Shown piece after piece: positions 1-9,231 of a stretch of 64,000 nucleotides of DNA. The stretch spans positions 1 through 64,000 of the forward strand of contig NZ_JAKVTV010000003.1 of NCBI RefSeq assembly GCF_022489035.1, given 5' to 3'. Every line of letters starts with the position of its first letter. Positions within the stretch are counted from its first letter, which is position 1. This DNA comes from Christiangramia lutea (lineage in GTDB: Bacteria > Bacteroidota > Bacteroidia > Flavobacteriales > Flavobacteriaceae). Both the position numbers and the translations under genes were made by a program. Under the pieces are notes generated by a model. The model did not search any database. It was not told the DNA's origin and saw nothing but the letters and a program-made list of their open reading frames with translations.

Positions 1-112
1 TTAGTTCCCTTAAGCATGATCTTTAAAAGTTGATATAAAAAGGTTATTCCAATTAATGAAACTGCTAAATAGAATATGATTTCTCCTAATTTCACTCTTT
101 CTAAAAAATGTT

Positions 113-245
113 AGCTAACGGTCTCGGCTATCGCCAGTTGCGGGAGTTGGGACGCGGAGTTGTCGGCTTATTTGTTCTATTTCCTGGTTTCTAAAATTAC
201 ACTTTTTCGATGATACCCGTTATTGGCGATGAGCCGTTGTTAGGC
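113..245. repeat. attC-like site 1 (integron cassette recombination site)
   Basis: The ends are AGCTAAC (113-119) and GTTAGGC (239-245); the second fits the attC core GTTRRRY exactly and the first is one base off. Inside, CGGCTATCGCC pairs with GGCGATGAGCC near the other end, leaving one extrahelical base, as in foldable attC sites. The site is 133 nt long, the same as the second site at 917-1049, and the two share most of their first 60 and last 25 nt. The R box at 239-245 contains the higA stop codon. Read on the minus strand, the order gene then attC is the usual one for an integron cassette. No integrase is visible. The assignment is by structure, not by a search. Confidence 0.65.
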
Positions 246-539
246 AGCGTTATTTTCTAACGGTTTTATGTTATTAAATTCTGCCTCTTTTAAATTCTTT
301 TCTTCTTCCAAATCATAATCATCTTGTAATCCCAACCAAAATTTAGCAGTTGTTCCAAAATATTTTGAAAGTCGTAGTGCTGTATCTGCTGTAATTCTTC
401 TTTTCTTTTTAATGATTTCACTAATCCGAGTTTGAGGAATAAAAGTTTCTTTGGAAAGTCGGTAAGCAGTTATTTCCATTGGATCTAAAAACTCTTCTTT
501 TAAAACTTCTCCAGGATGTATATTTTCTAACTTTTTCAT
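240..539 (-). CDS. higA: HigA-type antitoxin, XRE-family helix-turn-helix
   Basis: This 99-residue protein is the likely antitoxin of the pair. It opens with the HigA/VapI signature IHPGEVLKEEF, followed by a Cro/C1-type helix-turn-helix at about residues 24-62 (AYRLSKET...ISEIIKKKRRIT...ALRLSKYF) and the typical FWLGLQDDYDL segment. It would neutralise HigB by direct binding and repress the shared promoter. It lies 12 nt downstream of higB on the same strand, the toxin-first order of higBA loci. Its TAA stop lies inside the attC-like R box, so the gene fills its cassette to the edge. Confidence 0.93.
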   Translation of the reverse strand: MKKLENIHPGEVLKEEFLDPMEITAYRLSKETFIPQTRISEIIKKKRRITADTALRLSKYFGTTAKFWLGLQDDYDLEEEKNLKEAEFNNIKPLENNAA

Positions 540-551
540 TTTTTTATCTTT

Positions 552-833
552 TTAATGATAATCAATAATTTGAACTTCAAAGGCATTGTCATTTTCCCAT
601 TTGAACATTATTCTCCATTGTTTATTAATTCTAATGCTATGAAAACCTTCTAAATTCCCACTTAGTTTTTCTAAATGATTTGCTGGTGGAATTCTTAAGT
701 CATTTATATTTTGAGCATTATTTATCATTCTTAATTTTCTTCTTGCTACGTTTTGGATATTAGCAGGAAGCTTTCTTGATTGGGTTCCATTCCAAATTTT
801 GTCAGCTTCTTTATCTGCAAATGATTTTATCAC
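552..833 (-). CDS. higB: HigB-type mRNA interferase toxin (RelE superfamily)
   Basis: This 93-residue basic protein has the HigB/RelE-like layout: N-terminal helices with KIWNGTQSRKLP, a central HLEKLSGNLEGFHSIRI strand-turn region, and a C-terminus QWRIMF...VQIIDYH that ends in the DYH typical of HigB. Members of the family cleave mRNA on the ribosome. It is the first gene of the higBA pair and is preceded by its own promoter (-7 element at 862-869). Toxin-antitoxin pairs with private promoters are common cargo of large integron arrays, which fits the flanking attC-like sites. Confidence 0.93.
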   Translation of the reverse strand: MIKSFADKEADKIWNGTQSRKLPANIQNVARRKLRMINNAQNINDLRIPPANHLEKLSGNLEGFHSIRINKQWRIMFKWENDNAFEVQIIDYH

Positions 834-849
834 AAATAATTTTGTTTTA

Positions 850-869
850 CGTTACTAACGCCAAAGATA
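850..869 (-). promoter_or_regulatory. higBA promoter and possible HigA operator
   Basis: On the minus strand TATCTTTG (862-869) matches the Bacteroidota -7 element TAnnTTTG, 28 nt before the higB start. Just downstream, where transcription should begin, lies the palindrome CGTTACTAACG (850-860; 5-bp arms, one central base), a plausible operator for HigA autorepression. No clear -33 element was seen. Confidence 0.55.
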
Positions 870-916
870 AGTAAAAATTTAAAAATAAGAAGTTCCGAGC
901 ACGATAAAATTATGCT

Positions 917-1049
917 GCCTAACGGTCTCGGTTATCGCCAGTTGGCGGAGTAAGGGACGCGGAGTTGTCGGCTTAGTATTGATTCGTTGGTCAAGTTAAT
1001 TATTTTCTTTCTAACGGTGCCGCTTATTGGCGATGAACCGTTGTTACCT
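917..1049. repeat. attC-like site 2 (integron cassette recombination site)
   Basis: This is the second 133-nt copy. Its ends are GCCTAAC (917-923, a perfect RYYYAAC core) and GTTACCT (1043-1049). The arms GTTATCGCCA and TTGGCGATGAAC pair with each other. The 9-nt edge GCTGCCTAA (914-922) is the exact reverse complement of TTAGGCAGC (240-248) at the other end of the higBA unit, which is expected if both edges were joined in one circular cassette. The unit from one crossover point to the next is 804 bp in either orientation. Confidence 0.65.
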
Positions 1050-1495
1050 CTAGTTACGACACGTTTGAGTAAGCTCTAAAAACGACCATCGCTGCGCTAC
1101 AACAACAAAAATTATGAATGTTAGCAGAATTAAAAGAAAACACGTTCTTTCCTGTATTCTTTTTTAGGAAATTTTTGTTTTTTTAGTCGGAGTTAGAATT
1201 TTGAAATTCAGTTTTTTTCTTTTTTTTCTTTTCTGAATTTTTCTTTTGATTATTTATTTTTCAAGTTGAAATCCCCAATAGAATGAAGTTGATTTTAGGC
1301 AAATTTCGTTTTGTATTTTTTCCAGTCAGAGTGGAAAATATGAAAAGCATTTTTTTAAATTTTCCTTTTGATCTTTTTATTTTTAGTTGAAATTCAGTTT
1401 AAAGAAAACAATATTAGGCAAATTTCGTTCAGCACTTTTTTAATTTTAGCTAATGAAGTTCAGATTTCGTTTTTGTCGGAGTAATTAGAGGTAAC
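1044..1495. other. ORF-less cassette-like unit with degenerate internal repeats
   Basis: The segment opens with TTACCTCTA (1044-1052) and closes with TAGAGGTAAC (1486-1495), the complementary-edge rule that also holds for the higBA unit. It has no credible open frame and is very T-rich on the plus strand. It contains loosely repeated blocks: TTAGGCAAATTTCGTT occurs near 1295 and again near 1414, and a GTCGGAGT-like word recurs near 1182, 1325 and 1475. The third site that should follow at 1489 keeps only its left core (AGGTAAC); no matching right half was found, so the array seems truncated there. Confidence 0.4.
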
Positions 1496-1834
1496 GTGTT
1501 ATATGAGAACGAATATACACTTTTATAGGATTCCTCTCCGGGATAAGCCTAGGTTTTAGTGGCCTTTATAATCTGGGTTAAATAGGGGAAACTCAATGAT
1601 TGAATGGTCACCCATTTTTTCACCTGAAAATGAAAAAAACCGGTAAATCCCAGGATTCCGGGGTTTTTGATTGAGTTTAGCACTCAAAAAGTGGAGTCTG
1701 AAGGAACGACCATTTTTAAAATTATGCTGAGTTTGCAGGGCTTTCAAGAGGCTGTAAAAAATTGATCACCGGATTAGTTACACTTGAACAAAATTCAACT
1801 TATTATGAAGACACTTTTAAGCTAAAAGATGGTA
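1496..1834. other. Intergenic stretch without a supported gene
   Basis: No convincing gene was found. A 63-codon open frame on the minus strand (1556-1747) has no recognisable domain and no good start context. The word AGCCTAGGTT occurs twice, near 1546 and 1847. This may be degraded sequence at the edge of the cassette array. Confidence 0.4.
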
Positions 1835-1900
1835 AAAAATATGCCAGCCTAGGTTAGTAAATCGACCCTACCCAATTCACCTTTTAAGGTCTGGCATATT
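1835..1900 (-). terminator. Possible long-loop terminator of the two-component operon
   Basis: AATATGCCAG (1838-1847) and CTGGCATATT (1891-1900) are perfect 10-bp inverted arms. On the minus strand the closing arm runs into a T tract, seven nt after the response regulator stop. The loop is long (43 nt) and contains a small inner hairpin, so the call is tentative. Confidence 0.4.
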
Positions 1901-1906
1901 ATATTA

Positions 1907-2572
1907 TTAGATAAGTTGTAGATCCTTCATGATCGAAATAAGATGCGGATTGGTATTGGCGTTGAATTCGTCTCTTAATTCCTTTAAACGTTTTTCAATG
2001 GCACTTTTACTATTAGGTTTTAAGTTCTGACTTTTCAATTTTTGTTCTATCTGGTCCTGGGTAAATCCATTGGCCAGAAATTTTACAATATTAATTTCAA
2101 AATCATTTAAAGTCAGCACATTGTTTTGTTTCAGGATCTTTTCGATGGAAGGTGAATTATAAGATTCACCATCATTCAAACAAAAAATCGCAGCTTTTAA
2201 CTCTCTAAGTCCGTGACGATCTTTACAAACATAGGCATCGATATTCCCGGAATCCCAAAGCTCTCTAACAGATTGTGGATGATCCTCTATTGAATTCACC
2301 AGGATCTTGAGATCAGGATTTTCAGATTTTAAGATCGCGATCAATTCCTTTCCAGTTTTGATCTTTTCTTCGCGGTGATCATCTTTAAACGAAAGATCAC
2401 AGATGAGCAGATCAAAAGGCTCTCCATCCTGAGAAGCTTTTTTTGCCAGCAGCCAGGCTTTGTCGCAATATTGGGCATGGGCTACTTCCGGGATATTTAG
2501 TTCTTTTAAAACAGATGCAACGGCATGGTTGATACTGTCCATATCTTCTGCTACTAATATTTTTTTAAACAT
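1907..2572 (-). CDS. Response regulator with REC domain and C-terminal HTH
   Basis: This 221-residue protein has a receiver domain at about residues 1-130 (acidic pair E9/D10, phosphoacceptor Asp59 in LLICDLSF, conserved Lys in YVCKD), followed by a LuxR/NarL-like helix-turn-helix at about 155-205 (LTLNDFEINIVKFLANGFTQDQI). It starts 8 nt after the end of the histidine kinase gene, so the two are cotranscribed and almost certainly cognate. It should be a DNA-binding output regulator; its targets are unknown. The DNA-binding part is somewhat divergent from classical LuxR domains. Confidence 0.9.
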   Translation of the reverse strand: MFKKILVAEDMDSINHAVASVLKELNIPEVAHAQYCDKAWLLAKKASQDGEPFDLLICDLSFKDDHREEKIKTGKELIAILKSENPDLKILVNSIEDHPQSVRELWDSGNIDAYVCKDRHGLRELKAAIFCLNDGESYNSPSIEKILKQNNVLTLNDFEINIVKFLANGFTQDQIEQKLKSQNLKPNSKSAIEKRLKELRDEFNANTNPHLISIMKDLQLI

Positions 2573-2580
2573 GCCGGTTA

Positions 2581-4506
2581 CTATATTGGAATCTGGATGA
2601 AAATTTTTAATCCTTTTTCCTGTTCGATTTCAAAATTAAGTCTTCCTTTTATAGAAAAAATACGGTTTTCCATATTTTGAATTCCATTACCAGATTTAAG
2701 GTTTGTTTTTGTTACCCCAATACCATTATCCGTATACTGGATCTTCAATGAATTCTTTTCTTCAGAAAATATGATGGCCACCAACCTTGCCTTGCTGTGT
2801 TTATTCATATTGATCATTATTTCCTGCAAAACCCTGTAAAGGATGATCTTCTTCTCCTGGCTAATGTTATTCCAGTAAATAGTTTCTTCACCTCGGAGAA
2901 TAAGTCTCGTATTTTCGGAAATTGTAGAACTAAGCGTAGAGACCAAATGGGGCAGGTAATTATCGCCTGTATGAATACTGCTGTTCTCCCTGGAAATATT
3001 ACGGGTGCGCTTGTAGATATGCTCCAGTTTATCCATCAAGTGATTTGGCGCGATGTTCTGCATGCCACCCATTACATTATAGACATCGTTAGCCAGTTCA
3101 TCGTGAATCTTTTTAGAAATCCTGGATTCGGTCTTATAAGCTTCCTGAATTTTTTCCTTTTCGTGTCGCTGCCTTAAATAATAAAAACCGAATACGCTAC
3201 TCACCAGGATCAGCATTCCACCCAGGGATAGAATGATCGTTTGATTTTTTAATTCTTCGGTTTGTAATCGCTGTTCGCTAGATTCTGCTTCCAAGGATCT
3301 AATTTCCTCCTGCTTTTGTTTTTCATCATACCTGATCTTCGCGAAGAAATTTTTAGCCCGAATATTCTCCTTCCTAATGCTATCATTCAGTTGTATATAG
3401 ATTTTGGATAAATTCTTTATCTCATTTGAAGGTGAAAGTTGAATTAGCTTTTGAAGTGCATTTAGTTGTGAAGTCTTGCTACTGGTATTTTGAGCAGTCT
3501 GCAATAAACTGTCGGCATAAATCCTGGAAAGCCGCTTACTTTTGAACTGGTAATAATCTGAAAGATGATCATAACTCGCCAGAAGTCCATTTTGATCATT
3601 TTCCCTCCTCCTGAATTCCACCGCCTGTAATAGTTCGTCTATGACAATTGCCGAAGAATCCTGCAACCATTTTGTATAGGCATAATTATCAATGAACCTT
3701 GCTTTTGAAGTTTTATTGGTTTCGTTAGATCTTTCGATGATATCCTCAAAAATTTTCAAGGCTTCATCATATTTTTCCTGGTCCTGAAGAGTAAGTGCGA
3801 TGTTATTCAGGTTGCTGAGACTATCCCGGATGGTGGTTGCATATTTGAGCGCATTTCTCCATTCCTTGACCGCATCCTGATAAAATCCCTGGTTTCGGTA
3901 TGCCGTAGCAATGGTATTGTAAGCATTGCTTATATAGGAAGAATCTTCTTCAGAAAGATATTTTAAAGCTTCGGTTCCCGATTCCTGAGCGCCGATATAA
4001 TCGGTCGTGAGACTTTGAGCAAAAGCCATTTCAGATAATCTTCTGCCGGCACTGGAAGTGTCACCTATTGCTAAGTCGAACTTACTTGCTCTAAAAGCAT
4101 TCTCAAATTGTTGGTCATATTTTTTAAGGGACCTGAAAACTATCGATTTTCGATAGTATCCCTTAGCGATCTGGCCGGTGTCCTTTTGTGTTGTTGCGGA
4201 GTTGATTAGACTATCTGAAAAATAAAGCGAACTGTCATATTCCTTGATCCGGTTATGATAATATATTTTGTAATCAAGTATATCGGTTATTAGCGTATCC
4301 TTTTCATTTTTTATGATCCGAAGAGCTTTGTTGAAATTTGAGATTTTCTCGCGGATCCCTTCAGAATTTTTTCCTTTCTCAAAATAATAAAAAGAAGAAT
4401 CCTGCTTGGTTTGTATAGGATCAGGAGACATTTTTTCGTGGGTGCAGGAGCATAGCAACAGGAAACATAAAATACCAAAAAGATGAAGCAGGGGGCGTAG
4501 GTTCAT
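2581..4506 (-). CDS. TPR-containing sensor histidine kinase (NarL type), lipoprotein-like N-terminus
   Basis: This 641-residue protein has a lipobox (LLLCSC, Cys21), then tetratricopeptide-like helical repeats over about residues 35-390, one membrane helix near 423-445 (ILSLGGMLILVSSVFGFYYL), an H-box of the HisKA_3 kind (KKIHDELANDVY, near residue 466) and a HATPase with N box (EIMINMNKHSKA), DNGIGV and GNGIQNMENR. This layout is common in Bacteroidota, where the periplasmic TPR region is thought to sense proteins or peptides. It is the first gene of the pair with the response regulator. The ligand is unknown. Confidence 0.9.
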   Translation of the reverse strand: MNLRPLLHLFGILCFLLLCSCTHEKMSPDPIQTKQDSSFYYFEKGKNSEGIREKISNFNKALRIIKNEKDTLITDILDYKIYYHNRIKEYDSSLYFSDSLINSATTQKDTGQIAKGYYRKSIVFRSLKKYDQQFENAFRASKFDLAIGDTSSAGRRLSEMAFAQSLTTDYIGAQESGTEALKYLSEEDSSYISNAYNTIATAYRNQGFYQDAVKEWRNALKYATTIRDSLSNLNNIALTLQDQEKYDEALKIFEDIIERSNETNKTSKARFIDNYAYTKWLQDSSAIVIDELLQAVEFRRRENDQNGLLASYDHLSDYYQFKSKRLSRIYADSLLQTAQNTSSKTSQLNALQKLIQLSPSNEIKNLSKIYIQLNDSIRKENIRAKNFFAKIRYDEKQKQEEIRSLEAESSEQRLQTEELKNQTIILSLGGMLILVSSVFGFYYLRQRHEKEKIQEAYKTESRISKKIHDELANDVYNVMGGMQNIAPNHLMDKLEHIYKRTRNISRENSSIHTGDNYLPHLVSTLSSTISENTRLILRGEETIYWNNISQEKKIILYRVLQEIMINMNKHSKARLVAIIFSEEKNSLKIQYTDNGIGVTKTNLKSGNGIQNMENRIFSIKGRLNFEIEQEKGLKIFIQIPI

Positions 4507-7481: not shown

Positions 7482-8174
7482 ATGAAAGTAAGTATTTGGT
7501 CAGATGTTAGATGTCCTTTCTGTTATATAGGAAAGAAAAAATTTGAAGATGCCCTGGAACAATTTCCAAATAAAGACAAAGTAGAAATCGTTTGGAAAAG
7601 CTTTCAGCTCGATCCATCCTTAAAAACCGATCCCCATACCTCAATGCTGGAGTATTTCATAGAGGCTAAAGGTGTGAGTGAAGAGCAGGCGCTGCAGATG
7701 TTCAGCGGAGCTACAAAGATGGCAGAGGAAGCAGGTATCTCAATGAATCTTCAGGAAGGGATCCTGGCGAATTCTTTTAAAGCACACCGCCTTATTCAAT
7801 TTGCTAAAACGAGGAATTTAGGGAACGAGATTAAGGAAATTCTGTTTAAAGTTCATTTTGAAGACGGAAAAAATATTGATGATATCTCCGTTCTATTAGA
7901 GGTTGCAACGTCTATAGACCTGGATGCTGAAGAGGTTAAGCAGGTTTTAAATTCTGATGCCTATGCTTATGAAGTGAAGCAGGACGAGATGGAGGCCAGG
8001 AATATTGGTGTTCGAGGAGTTCCATTTTTTGTATTTGATGATAAATATGCCATTTCCGGGGCCCAGCCAGTTGAAACTTTCCTTCAGACTTTAGAAACGG
8101 TCTGGAAGGAAAAGAATTCCGAACTTAAGATCTCTGAAGGGGATTCGTGTACCAGCGAGGAAAATTGTGACTAA
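7482..8174 (+). CDS. DsbA-family oxidoreductase (FrnE-like)
   Basis: This 230-residue protein has a thioredoxin fold with helical insertion. The CPFC redox motif is at residues 11-14, right after the first strand (VSIWSDVRCPFC), and the cis-Pro loop reads RGVPFFVFD. There is no signal peptide, so it is cytosolic, as expected for FrnE/2-hydroxychromene-isomerase-like members. The tail holds two more cysteines (DSCTSEENC), a feature of some FrnE proteins. It probably reduces or isomerises thiols in stress defence; the substrate is not known. Confidence 0.9.
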   Translation: MKVSIWSDVRCPFCYIGKKKFEDALEQFPNKDKVEIVWKSFQLDPSLKTDPHTSMLEYFIEAKGVSEEQALQMFSGATKMAEEAGISMNLQEGILANSFKAHRLIQFAKTRNLGNEIKEILFKVHFEDGKNIDDISVLLEVATSIDLDAEEVKQVLNSDAYAYEVKQDEMEARNIGVRGVPFFVFDDKYAISGAQPVETFLQTLETVWKEKNSELKISEGDSCTSEENCD

Positions 8175-8284
8175 AAAACCCCTTGCCATATTTAAATAGG
8201 CTATTATACCAATCAACTTGATCTAAACTGCATCTTGGACCTCCGTCCACCGCCCACGTGCGCCTAAGCTTTATTAGAGGCGCA

Positions 8285-8376
8285 AGCTCGCAATAAAAAA
8301 AGTAGATTAAAAATAAGGAGAGATGATAGAATAAAAAAGCTCGCCTTCGCTCAAAAATGAGCTTCGGCGAGCGAAG
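8285..8376. repeat. 92-bp direct repeat, copy 1, with terminator hairpin
   Basis: This copy differs from the one at 8743-8834 by two bases (around 8319 and 8322). It contains a strong hairpin, GCTCGCC pairing with GGCGAGC, with an inner GCTCA/TGAGC stem. On the minus strand the hairpin is followed by a run of six T, so it can work as an intrinsic terminator for the GIY-YIG gene, which is read toward it. Confidence 0.8.
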
Positions 8377-8466
8377 AGGTTGACTGCGCCTCAACCAGGC
8401 ACTCCCACCCCGTAATAGCATCCGGTTTTTCTTGCAGTCCAAAGGTCATAAAACCAAAAATCTGCT

Positions 8467-8709
8467 TTAGACTAACCTTTTATTGAGAAAGGCTCTTCCA
8501 GAACCGGTTTTCAAATATTTTTCAAAGGCATAGGCTTTATACTTATCATTAAAATGAATTTGGGTAACAAGAAAAACCGGCAATCTTTGTTTAGTAGATT
8601 TCACTTTTCCTGCACAATGTTCCTGGAAACGGCGTTGGAAGTTAGAGGTGCAACCCACATAGATTGTTTTGTCAGAACATTCTAATAAATAAACAATCCG
8701 GGTATCCAT
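8467..8709 (-). CDS. GIY-YIG domain nuclease-like protein
   Basis: This 80-residue single-domain protein has the variant motif VYLLECSDKTIYVG (GIY-YIG equivalent) followed by RRFQEH and AYAFEKYLKTGSGRAFL, so the conserved Arg and Glu are present. I chose the ATG at 8709 because it puts MDTRIVYLL at the N-terminus; an in-frame extension to 8751 would run into the flanking repeat. Such small proteins are scattered beside RNA genes in Flavobacteriia. It lies between two 92-bp repeats next to ssrA, which suggests it arrived as a small mobile or duplicated unit. Nuclease activity is inferred, not shown. Confidence 0.85.
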   Translation of the reverse strand: MDTRIVYLLECSDKTIYVGCTSNFQRRFQEHCAGKVKSTKQRLPVFLVTQIHFNDKYKAYAFEKYLKTGSGRAFLNKRLV

Positions 8710-8742
8710 TCTATTTAAAATGATAGTGGACTGCGTCCCCGT

Positions 8743-8834
8743 AGCTCGCAATAAAAAAAGTAGATTAAAAATAAGGAAAGGTGATAGAATAAAAAAGCTC
8801 GCCTTCGCTCAAAAATGAGCTTCGGCGAGCGAAG
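8743..8834. repeat. 92-bp direct repeat, copy 2, with terminator hairpin at the tmRNA 3' end
   Basis: This is the second copy of the repeat at 8285-8376. It touches the 3' end of tmRNA: on the minus strand the RNA ends in ACC and the hairpin with its T tract follows at once, so this copy is the likely ssrA terminator. Having the same sequence beyond the GIY-YIG gene makes that gene look inserted at, or copied with, the ssrA terminator. Confidence 0.8.
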
Positions 8835-8835
8835 G

Positions 8836-9231
8836 TGGAGTCGGAGGGGTTCGAACCCTCGTCCAAACAAGCAATTCAGCTGCTTTCTACACGTTTAGTT
8901 TTCACTTAATTGTCGATGCAAAGCCGGCCGAAAACCACCAACTTTACACGTATCCTCGTTTAAATTTCAGGAACTCATCAAGGCCCTGAGCTCCCTATAT
9001 TTACTTTATCGGTGCCTCTAATGTGAACGCCGTAAATCAAGGCTTTCACGAGACATCTTGGTTCCCTGCCTAGCAGGGATTAAGGTAACGTACTATAATT
9101 CGGTTACGCAGCCAAGGCGTAGTTATTCTCGCCGTTTAAAAAAGTGTGAAACATGAGATTTAAGAGCTATATCCCAGCGCTCTACGTGCTTACAACTCAA
9201 TTAGACTCGCTGTCAAAACCAAGTCGACCCC
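8836..9231 (-). ncRNA. ssrA: Transfer-messenger RNA (tmRNA)
   Basis: The 5' end reads GGGGUCGACUUGGUUUUGAC and pairs with the 3' end CGACUCC to form the acceptor stem. The T arm (GGGUUCGAACCC) is intact. The resume region encodes GENNYALAA followed by UAA (GGCGAGAAUAACUACGCC, then UUGGCUGCGUAA), the flavobacterial type of proteolysis tag. The RNA rescues stalled ribosomes together with SmpB. The genome encodes ACC and then T after the acceptor stem, so the final A of CCA must be added post-transcriptionally. The ends are estimated to within a few bases. Confidence 0.95.

Follow-up and report, generated by a model that had tools for sequence, protein, structure and literature searches.

A cassette array in Christiangramia lutea that is probably run by a XerA-like tyrosine recombinase in place of a canonical integron integrase

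The first 64,000 nucleotides of contig C23 of Christiangramia lutea (NZ_JAKVTV010000003.1; this whole stretch is called the window) start inside an array of gene cassettes and attC-like sites. As a whole, the data are best explained by a sedentary chromosomal integron-type system run by a XerA-like recombinase, and we consider this explanation probable. In the proposed mechanism a XerA-like tyrosine recombinase of 387 aa would excise and insert circular gene cassettes at G^TT. Its recombination partners would be attC-like hairpins and an attI site immediately downstream of the recombinase gene. In the openly available literature no paper on such a system was found; subscription journals and preprints were outside this search, so one may exist.

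The initial annotation had described two sites at the edge of the window and suspected that the genome contains more. At least 112 were located, 110 on 11 contigs by a local scan and 2 further ones on contig C9. The scan covered only the first 20 kb of contigs C1, C26, C27 and C28, 12 kb of C12 and 3 kb of C23. In the site search 40 of 121 candidates were scored and all 40 were matches. Nine of the 11 site-bearing contigs have lengths of 3.3-42.4 kb and carry units all along them, e.g. 45 sites in the 42.4 kb of contig C29. The sites, with a core of about 121-126 nt, are up to about 98% alike. Without the site core the cassettes span 208-2720 nt (median 681). Their G+C content is 29% compared to 39% in window 2000-64000. 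The largest open reading frame (ORF) of at least 60 aa faces the site in 90 of 99 cassettes; it faces away in 3 and is absent in 6.

The central evidence is the relationship between the two ends of one cassette. For cassettes between neighbouring sites, we asked how well the first 18 nt pair with the 18 nt at the other end of the same cassette. In 99 cassettes, own ends paired at 13.8 of 18 positions. With shuffled ends the value was 7.76, and the highest among 1000 shuffles was 8.31. Both sides of one and the same site paired at chance level (7.66 of 18; 106 sites). Restriction to the 86 distinct cassettes gave 13.86 versus 7.63. In 66 of these the first 8 nt were fully complementary (shuffled mean 1.63, maximum 5 in 200 shuffles). 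A single own-end position (A, mostly opposite C) was never paired. This is what excision as a circle followed by insertion between G and TT predicts. Thus, the G^TT rule, initially deduced from two units of the window, extends to the genome. The array, its G^TT-bounded cassettes, the pairing of own ends, the single orientation and an attI can be read directly from the DNA.

Both sites of the window are 133 nt long and lie on the minus strand at 113..245 (site 1) and 917..1049 (site 2), exactly where they had been annotated. Site 2 represents the commoner sequence type of the genome. The crossover G^TT of site 1 is between the complements of 119 and 118. Site 1 belongs to the higBA cassette (119..922, minus strand, 804 bp), which begins with TT (complement of 922-921), ends with G (complement of 119) and has the edges TTAGGCAGC/GCTGCCTAA. 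It codes for a higB-like toxin (552..833, minus strand, 93 aa; PF05015, E 1.5e-26) and a higA-like antitoxin (240..539, minus strand, 99 aa; HTH_3, E 2.2e-5). The stop codon of the latter falls within the R'' box (GCCTAAC) of site 1. The second cassette (923..1494, minus strand, 572 bp) has the own ends TTACCTCTA/TAGAGGTAA and no internal ORF of at least 50 aa. Both edge pairs are among the listed inverted pairs. Accordingly, the edge rule, the gene-then-attC order on the minus strand and the identity of higBA were all borne out. The next cassette is represented by its start only (1..118, minus strand), since base 1 of the window is base 1 of contig C23 and the leftmost unit is truncated. Rfam gave only two matches in window 1-2000, far under the gathering scores and both outside the two sites.

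The most extended array was seen in the single-contig genome G017. It comprises 169 sites in one orientation at 2,191,108-2,378,090 (187 kb), directly after the recombinase gene (2,189,410-2,190,558). Own ends of its 164 cassettes paired at 13.04 of 18 positions versus 7.55. Within the genus the number of cassettes was sufficient for the own-end test at 15 loci; 10 gave 0 of 500 shuffles, the others 8, 13, 20, 20 and 80 of 500.

Next we consider the structure of the sites in the excised form. Of the two strands, the one opposite the gene strand had the more stable DNA fold in 98 of 98 sites. A consensus structure from the 97 distinct sites contained 34 pairs, and at 18 of these two or more Watson-Crick types occurred. 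The covarying pairs are mostly outer ones and represent own-end pairing itself; therefore they are not independent of the own-end test. An asymmetric unpaired spacer separates outer from inner stems. The extrahelical stem base that had been annotated in the window reappeared in the R''-L'' arm, where one single base stays unpaired; in 87 of 97 sites it is a G. According to PMC2727003, attC sites are characterized by a folded bottom strand, R and L stems, an unpaired spacer, a variable end and usually two or three extrahelical bases. The present sites display this architecture, though with only one clear extrahelical base. Hence, the recombinase would act on a folded bottom strand. Alternatively, its substrate might be double-stranded DNA, as for an ordinary Xer enzyme; the palindrome then would be an inverted pair of core sites and no single strand would be involved. 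We judge this possible, yet unlikely. There would be no need in a double-strand reaction for a cassette's own start and end to pair at about 14 of 18 positions, for a uniform orientation as in 169 of 169 sites or for a strand-asymmetric extrahelical G.

The candidate catalyst is encoded on contig C12 (L027:6864-8027, minus strand). It is an open frame directed towards an attI-like site and the first cassette behind it. The attI motif is TATATT-N7-ATATAAC-NN-G. Its G is located exactly 28 nt past the recombinase stop codon in 17 of 17 fetched genus loci and is directly followed by TT in 16 of them (TA in L172). In other genera ATATAAC-NN-GTT was present within 90 nt of the stop codon in 6 of 9 array loci, in three as the full motif. 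By position and motif this is an attI beside the recombinase gene, as required for an integron.

The window carries a copy of this attI (attI', 1493..1517, minus strand; TATATT-N7-ATATAAC-NN-G^TT), the last TT of which belongs to the second cassette, the first one after attI'. It is part of a relic (1493..1569, minus strand), which aligns over 78 columns (73% identity, E 7e-6) with attI and the tail of the recombinase gene on contig C12. A tblastn search of the recombinase against window 1-3000 remained at chance level (E 1.1 or worse); thus the relic was judged on DNA alone. From attI' and the adjoining similarity to the recombinase end, the window seems to hold the start of a second array, with an attI left by a lost recombinase gene. 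This array would have been seeded at the attI copy by the recombinase remnant and is presumably served in trans. The initial claim of an array without integrase therefore holds for the neighbourhood of the window unit; it does not hold for the genome, which encodes a recombinase with its own attI and array. A response regulator is next to attI' and was found in 15 of 24 genus genomes, including C. lutea. Sites within 1.5 kb of it were absent in the 14 other genomes and present at the C. lutea locus only. Separately, an attI-like motif with one mismatch and without sites was seen near the response regulator locus of another species (L323:136, G015).

Do cassettes move? A second copy of the higBA cassette was detected on contig C31 (97.7% identity over the 683-nt body). 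Relatives of 86-91% identity with identical edges exist in three other species (L168, L170, L175). Another cassette was 99.1% identical in G014 and yet another 95.8% identical in a different genus. These comparisons required at least 90% coverage and at least 80% identity and were made against at most 20 kb per genome. All recurring cassettes share the G^TT and AA^C edges, and in the match list they recur singly, not as runs of neighbours. As judged by these alignments, the same cassette bodies reside in differing neighbourhoods and species.

The cassette cargo is diverse. We searched 92 ORFs, i.e. those of the 93 cassettes with an ORF minus one unlocated and one duplicate, plus higB. They matched 59 Pfam families (E up to 0.001), none with more than 4 members. 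Among these were helix-turn-helix regulators, thioredoxin-like proteins, several hydrolase families, HigB toxin and barstar. The hydrolases include Erythro_esteras and Beta-lactamase, assigned by family match alone. In the same ORFs 25 PADLOC defence models were matched with one member each. The strongest were PD-Lambda-2_B (E 8.2e-43) and AbiLi (E 5.8e-19), the others 3.7e-11 or weaker.

Could the array be a relic of an integron-type system which is no longer mobile? The recombinase remnant within the window points in this direction, and mobility is here judged from sequence. However, on contig C12 the frame of the recombinase gene is open, the catalytic columns of the enzyme are kept across 29 homologues, and one cassette is 99.1% identical between two species. 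We thus regard a dead array as improbable.

What kind of enzyme is the recombinase? The best NCBIfam model was NF040815 (XerA type; 226 bits, cut-off 220). The integron integrase model TIGR02249 scored 212 bits, under its cut-off of 265. The NCBI name of NF040815, 'site-specific tyrosine recombinase/integron integrase', covers proteins without the IntI domain; by chance it may fit the function of this group. An alignment of 29 homologues, 30 canonical IntI and 30 Xer proteins was used to compare the region of the IntI insertion. In all 29 homologues it was 63-64 residues long, as opposed to 106 in each of the 30 IntI and 66-76 in Xer. Relative to IntI, an insertion of about 42 residues is missing. 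By this alignment the recombinase is without the IntI-specific additional domain (I2), which an integron in the strict sense demands. In the literature, cassette capture is said to depend on the I2 helix, which is described as having no known counterpart in other proteins (PMC7790495), and the additional domain is called a defining feature of IntI (PMC9668308). Because the recombinase fails this defining test, the system is not a plain known integron. The initial reading as an integron-like array with attC-type sites stands, an assignment to the known integrons does not.

A quick tree was calculated from 123 of 165 sequences (at most 16 of 30 IntI, 9 of 18 XerD and 8 of 12 XerC; without short rows and without the named loci above L300). 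XerC/XerD were separate (SH-aLRT 100). One starred clade of 20 consisted of 16 IntI rows and 4 more, without the present recombinases (SH-aLRT 100). The recombinase group formed another starred clade of 33 rows. A sister relationship of IntI and the core group was not rejected (p-AU 0.42). Holding IntI together with all 29 homologues was rejected (p 2e-65); two of the 29 lie elsewhere in the tree. For the N-terminal 80 residues, a PDB sequence search with the N-terminal profile returned nothing significant; its weak matches included 4o66 (SMARCAL1 HARP, E 0.64). Conceivably, a HARP/XPB-like N-terminal domain, and not an I2 helix, helps to read the hairpin.

The distribution links enzyme and sites. 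In the genus, recombinase and sites were both present in 23 of 24 genomes (one recombinase each) and both missing in one, a genome which is 67% complete. Two of the 23 (G011, G019) had only 2 site matches each. In G006 the recombinase locus (L169) has a good attI and the genome 18 site matches, yet no array is beside the recombinase. A relative of the recombinase (E up to 1e-60) was identified in 160 of 299 family genomes and 120 of 203 genera. A scan of genome contigs with the single recombinase protein gave nothing; repeated with an alignment, it supplied the named loci mentioned below. In other genera a clear repeat array was detected at 9 of 20 fetched loci. This search concerned the 3' side; of the 5' side no more than about 1 kb had been retrieved, which was outside the search. 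Those 9 loci passed the own-end test (0 to 1 of 500 shuffles) at recombinase identities down to 36%. At the other 11 a clear array was absent, and in 3 of these the contig ends within 2.4 kb. The test failed outright at L157 (three units, 500 of 500). Among the named loci the number of units was sufficient at two, both of which did not pass (L269, 159 of 500; L248, 300 of 500). Repeat peaks without the AACA and CGTT end motifs were dropped in this test (10 of 16 kept at L152). By a hand count of the listed hits of at least 300 bits, those within 3 kb of a contig start were 25 on the minus versus 1 on the plus strand. Such an excess is to be expected where assemblies are interrupted by repeats downstream of the gene. 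By position and alignment, the association of recombinase and array across genera is established, as is the missing IntI insertion.

A canonical integron was rejected as a candidate. An IntI over the cut-off was found neither in the C. lutea genome nor in any of the 299 family genomes, a scan in which the controls were silent as well; the same model responded in 107 of 392 genomes across the phylum, in other classes. At 8 of these IntI loci repeats were on the 5' side in 3, mainly on the 3' side in 2 and absent in 3. Hence, the repeat finder does detect canonical arrays. The two loci with repeats mainly 3' of intI (L349, L350) indicate that reversed integrons seem to occur in the phylum, too. 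For Bacteroidetes in the narrow sense IntegronFinder 2.0 lists a single complete integron, that of Salinibacter ruber M1 (PMC9024848).

These data bear on the possibility that host XerC/XerD, or a missed or lost canonical IntI, moves the array and that the neighbouring recombinase is incidental. The genome does encode two Xer proteins, one of them a XerD above its cut-off, and IntI with repeat arrays at 5 of 8 loci is known from other classes of the phylum. On the other hand, the 299 family genomes gave no hit of a canonical IntI and the C. lutea genome is rated 100% complete. Further, recombinase, attI and array adjoin one another in several genera, and recombinase and sites are co-present or co-absent in 24 of 24 genomes. 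This makes such an arrangement very improbable. An alternative in which MITE- or REP-like palindromes are scattered among ordinary genes and no cassette moves is hardly credible: the sites are numerous, palindromic and near-identical, but a transposed repeat would not make the far end of a unit pair with its own start while the two sides of one site pair by chance only, and entire units reappear with exact G^TT edges in other contexts.

Relatives of the recombinase on plasmids (E up to 1e-40) and in phages (E up to 1e-30) were all below 60% identity, among the matches listed 31-46%. The plasmid matches comprise 71 records, 50 of them from Acinetobacter, which among the matches listed have 46% identity over residues 134-363. 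The site itself had no match on plasmids (blastn) or in viral contigs (one exact 23-base pattern).

How does the XerA-like recombinase system compare with known ones? The superintegron of Vibrio cholerae with its VCR sites is a sedentary chromosomal integron. Shared are the large array, near-identical attC-like sites, own-end pairing, cassettes in one orientation, low G+C, an attI beside a tyrosine recombinase gene and toxin-antitoxin cassettes. Different is the recombinase, which is not an IntI, has no I2-bearing insertion and possesses an extra N-terminal domain. Moreover, its gene reads towards attI and the cassettes, not away from them. In Treponema-type integrons the recombinase gene is likewise transcribed towards attI, in cassette direction, according to PMC3607928. 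The present system resembles these reversed-intI integrons in gene direction; however, the Treponema recombinases are IntI. The window end is reminiscent of CALIN (clusters of attC sites without integrase) in that no recombinase gene lies beside it (window 1-3000). Unlike CALIN, it starts at an attI copy and the matching recombinase is encoded elsewhere in the genome. Xer enzymes are known as resolvases of a single chromosomal site. The recombinase is most similar to archaeal XerA, both by NCBIfam model and by best solved structure (4a8e); in contrast to XerA, its gene sits at a cassette array and it bears the N-terminal extension. From IntI integrases (2a3v) it is distinguished by the absent insertion and by the separate IntI clade.

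This may be a second way to build an integron. The chances appear about even that we are dealing with a second integron kind, characterized by a XerA-type recombinase, folded attC-like hairpins, no I2 helix and possibly a fork-binding HARP/XPB-like domain, which is widespread in Flavobacteriaceae, perhaps wider in Bacteroidota, and which arose apart from IntI or before the gain of I2. If true, a natural cassette system with an I2-less enzyme would turn the origin of integrons into a directly testable question. Surveys that require the IntI domain then would overlook large cassette reservoirs, such as the 169 sites in one single-contig genome.

Two minor observations are added. The ends of contigs C2, C3, C7 and C8 (L033, L034, L037, L038) are identical and joined at one position to four different attC-like sites, and ORF L027:3-755 presumably codes for an IS110-family transposase. 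IS1111-attC elements target attC sites in canonical integrons. By analogy, this suggests an insertion sequence that targets attC-like sites. Finally, a small ORF at window 8467-8751, which we take to be a GIY-YIG protein, is located between two ORFs that share the stretch RSPKLIFERRRAFLFYHLSLFLIYFFYCEL (local repeat, window 8125-8870).
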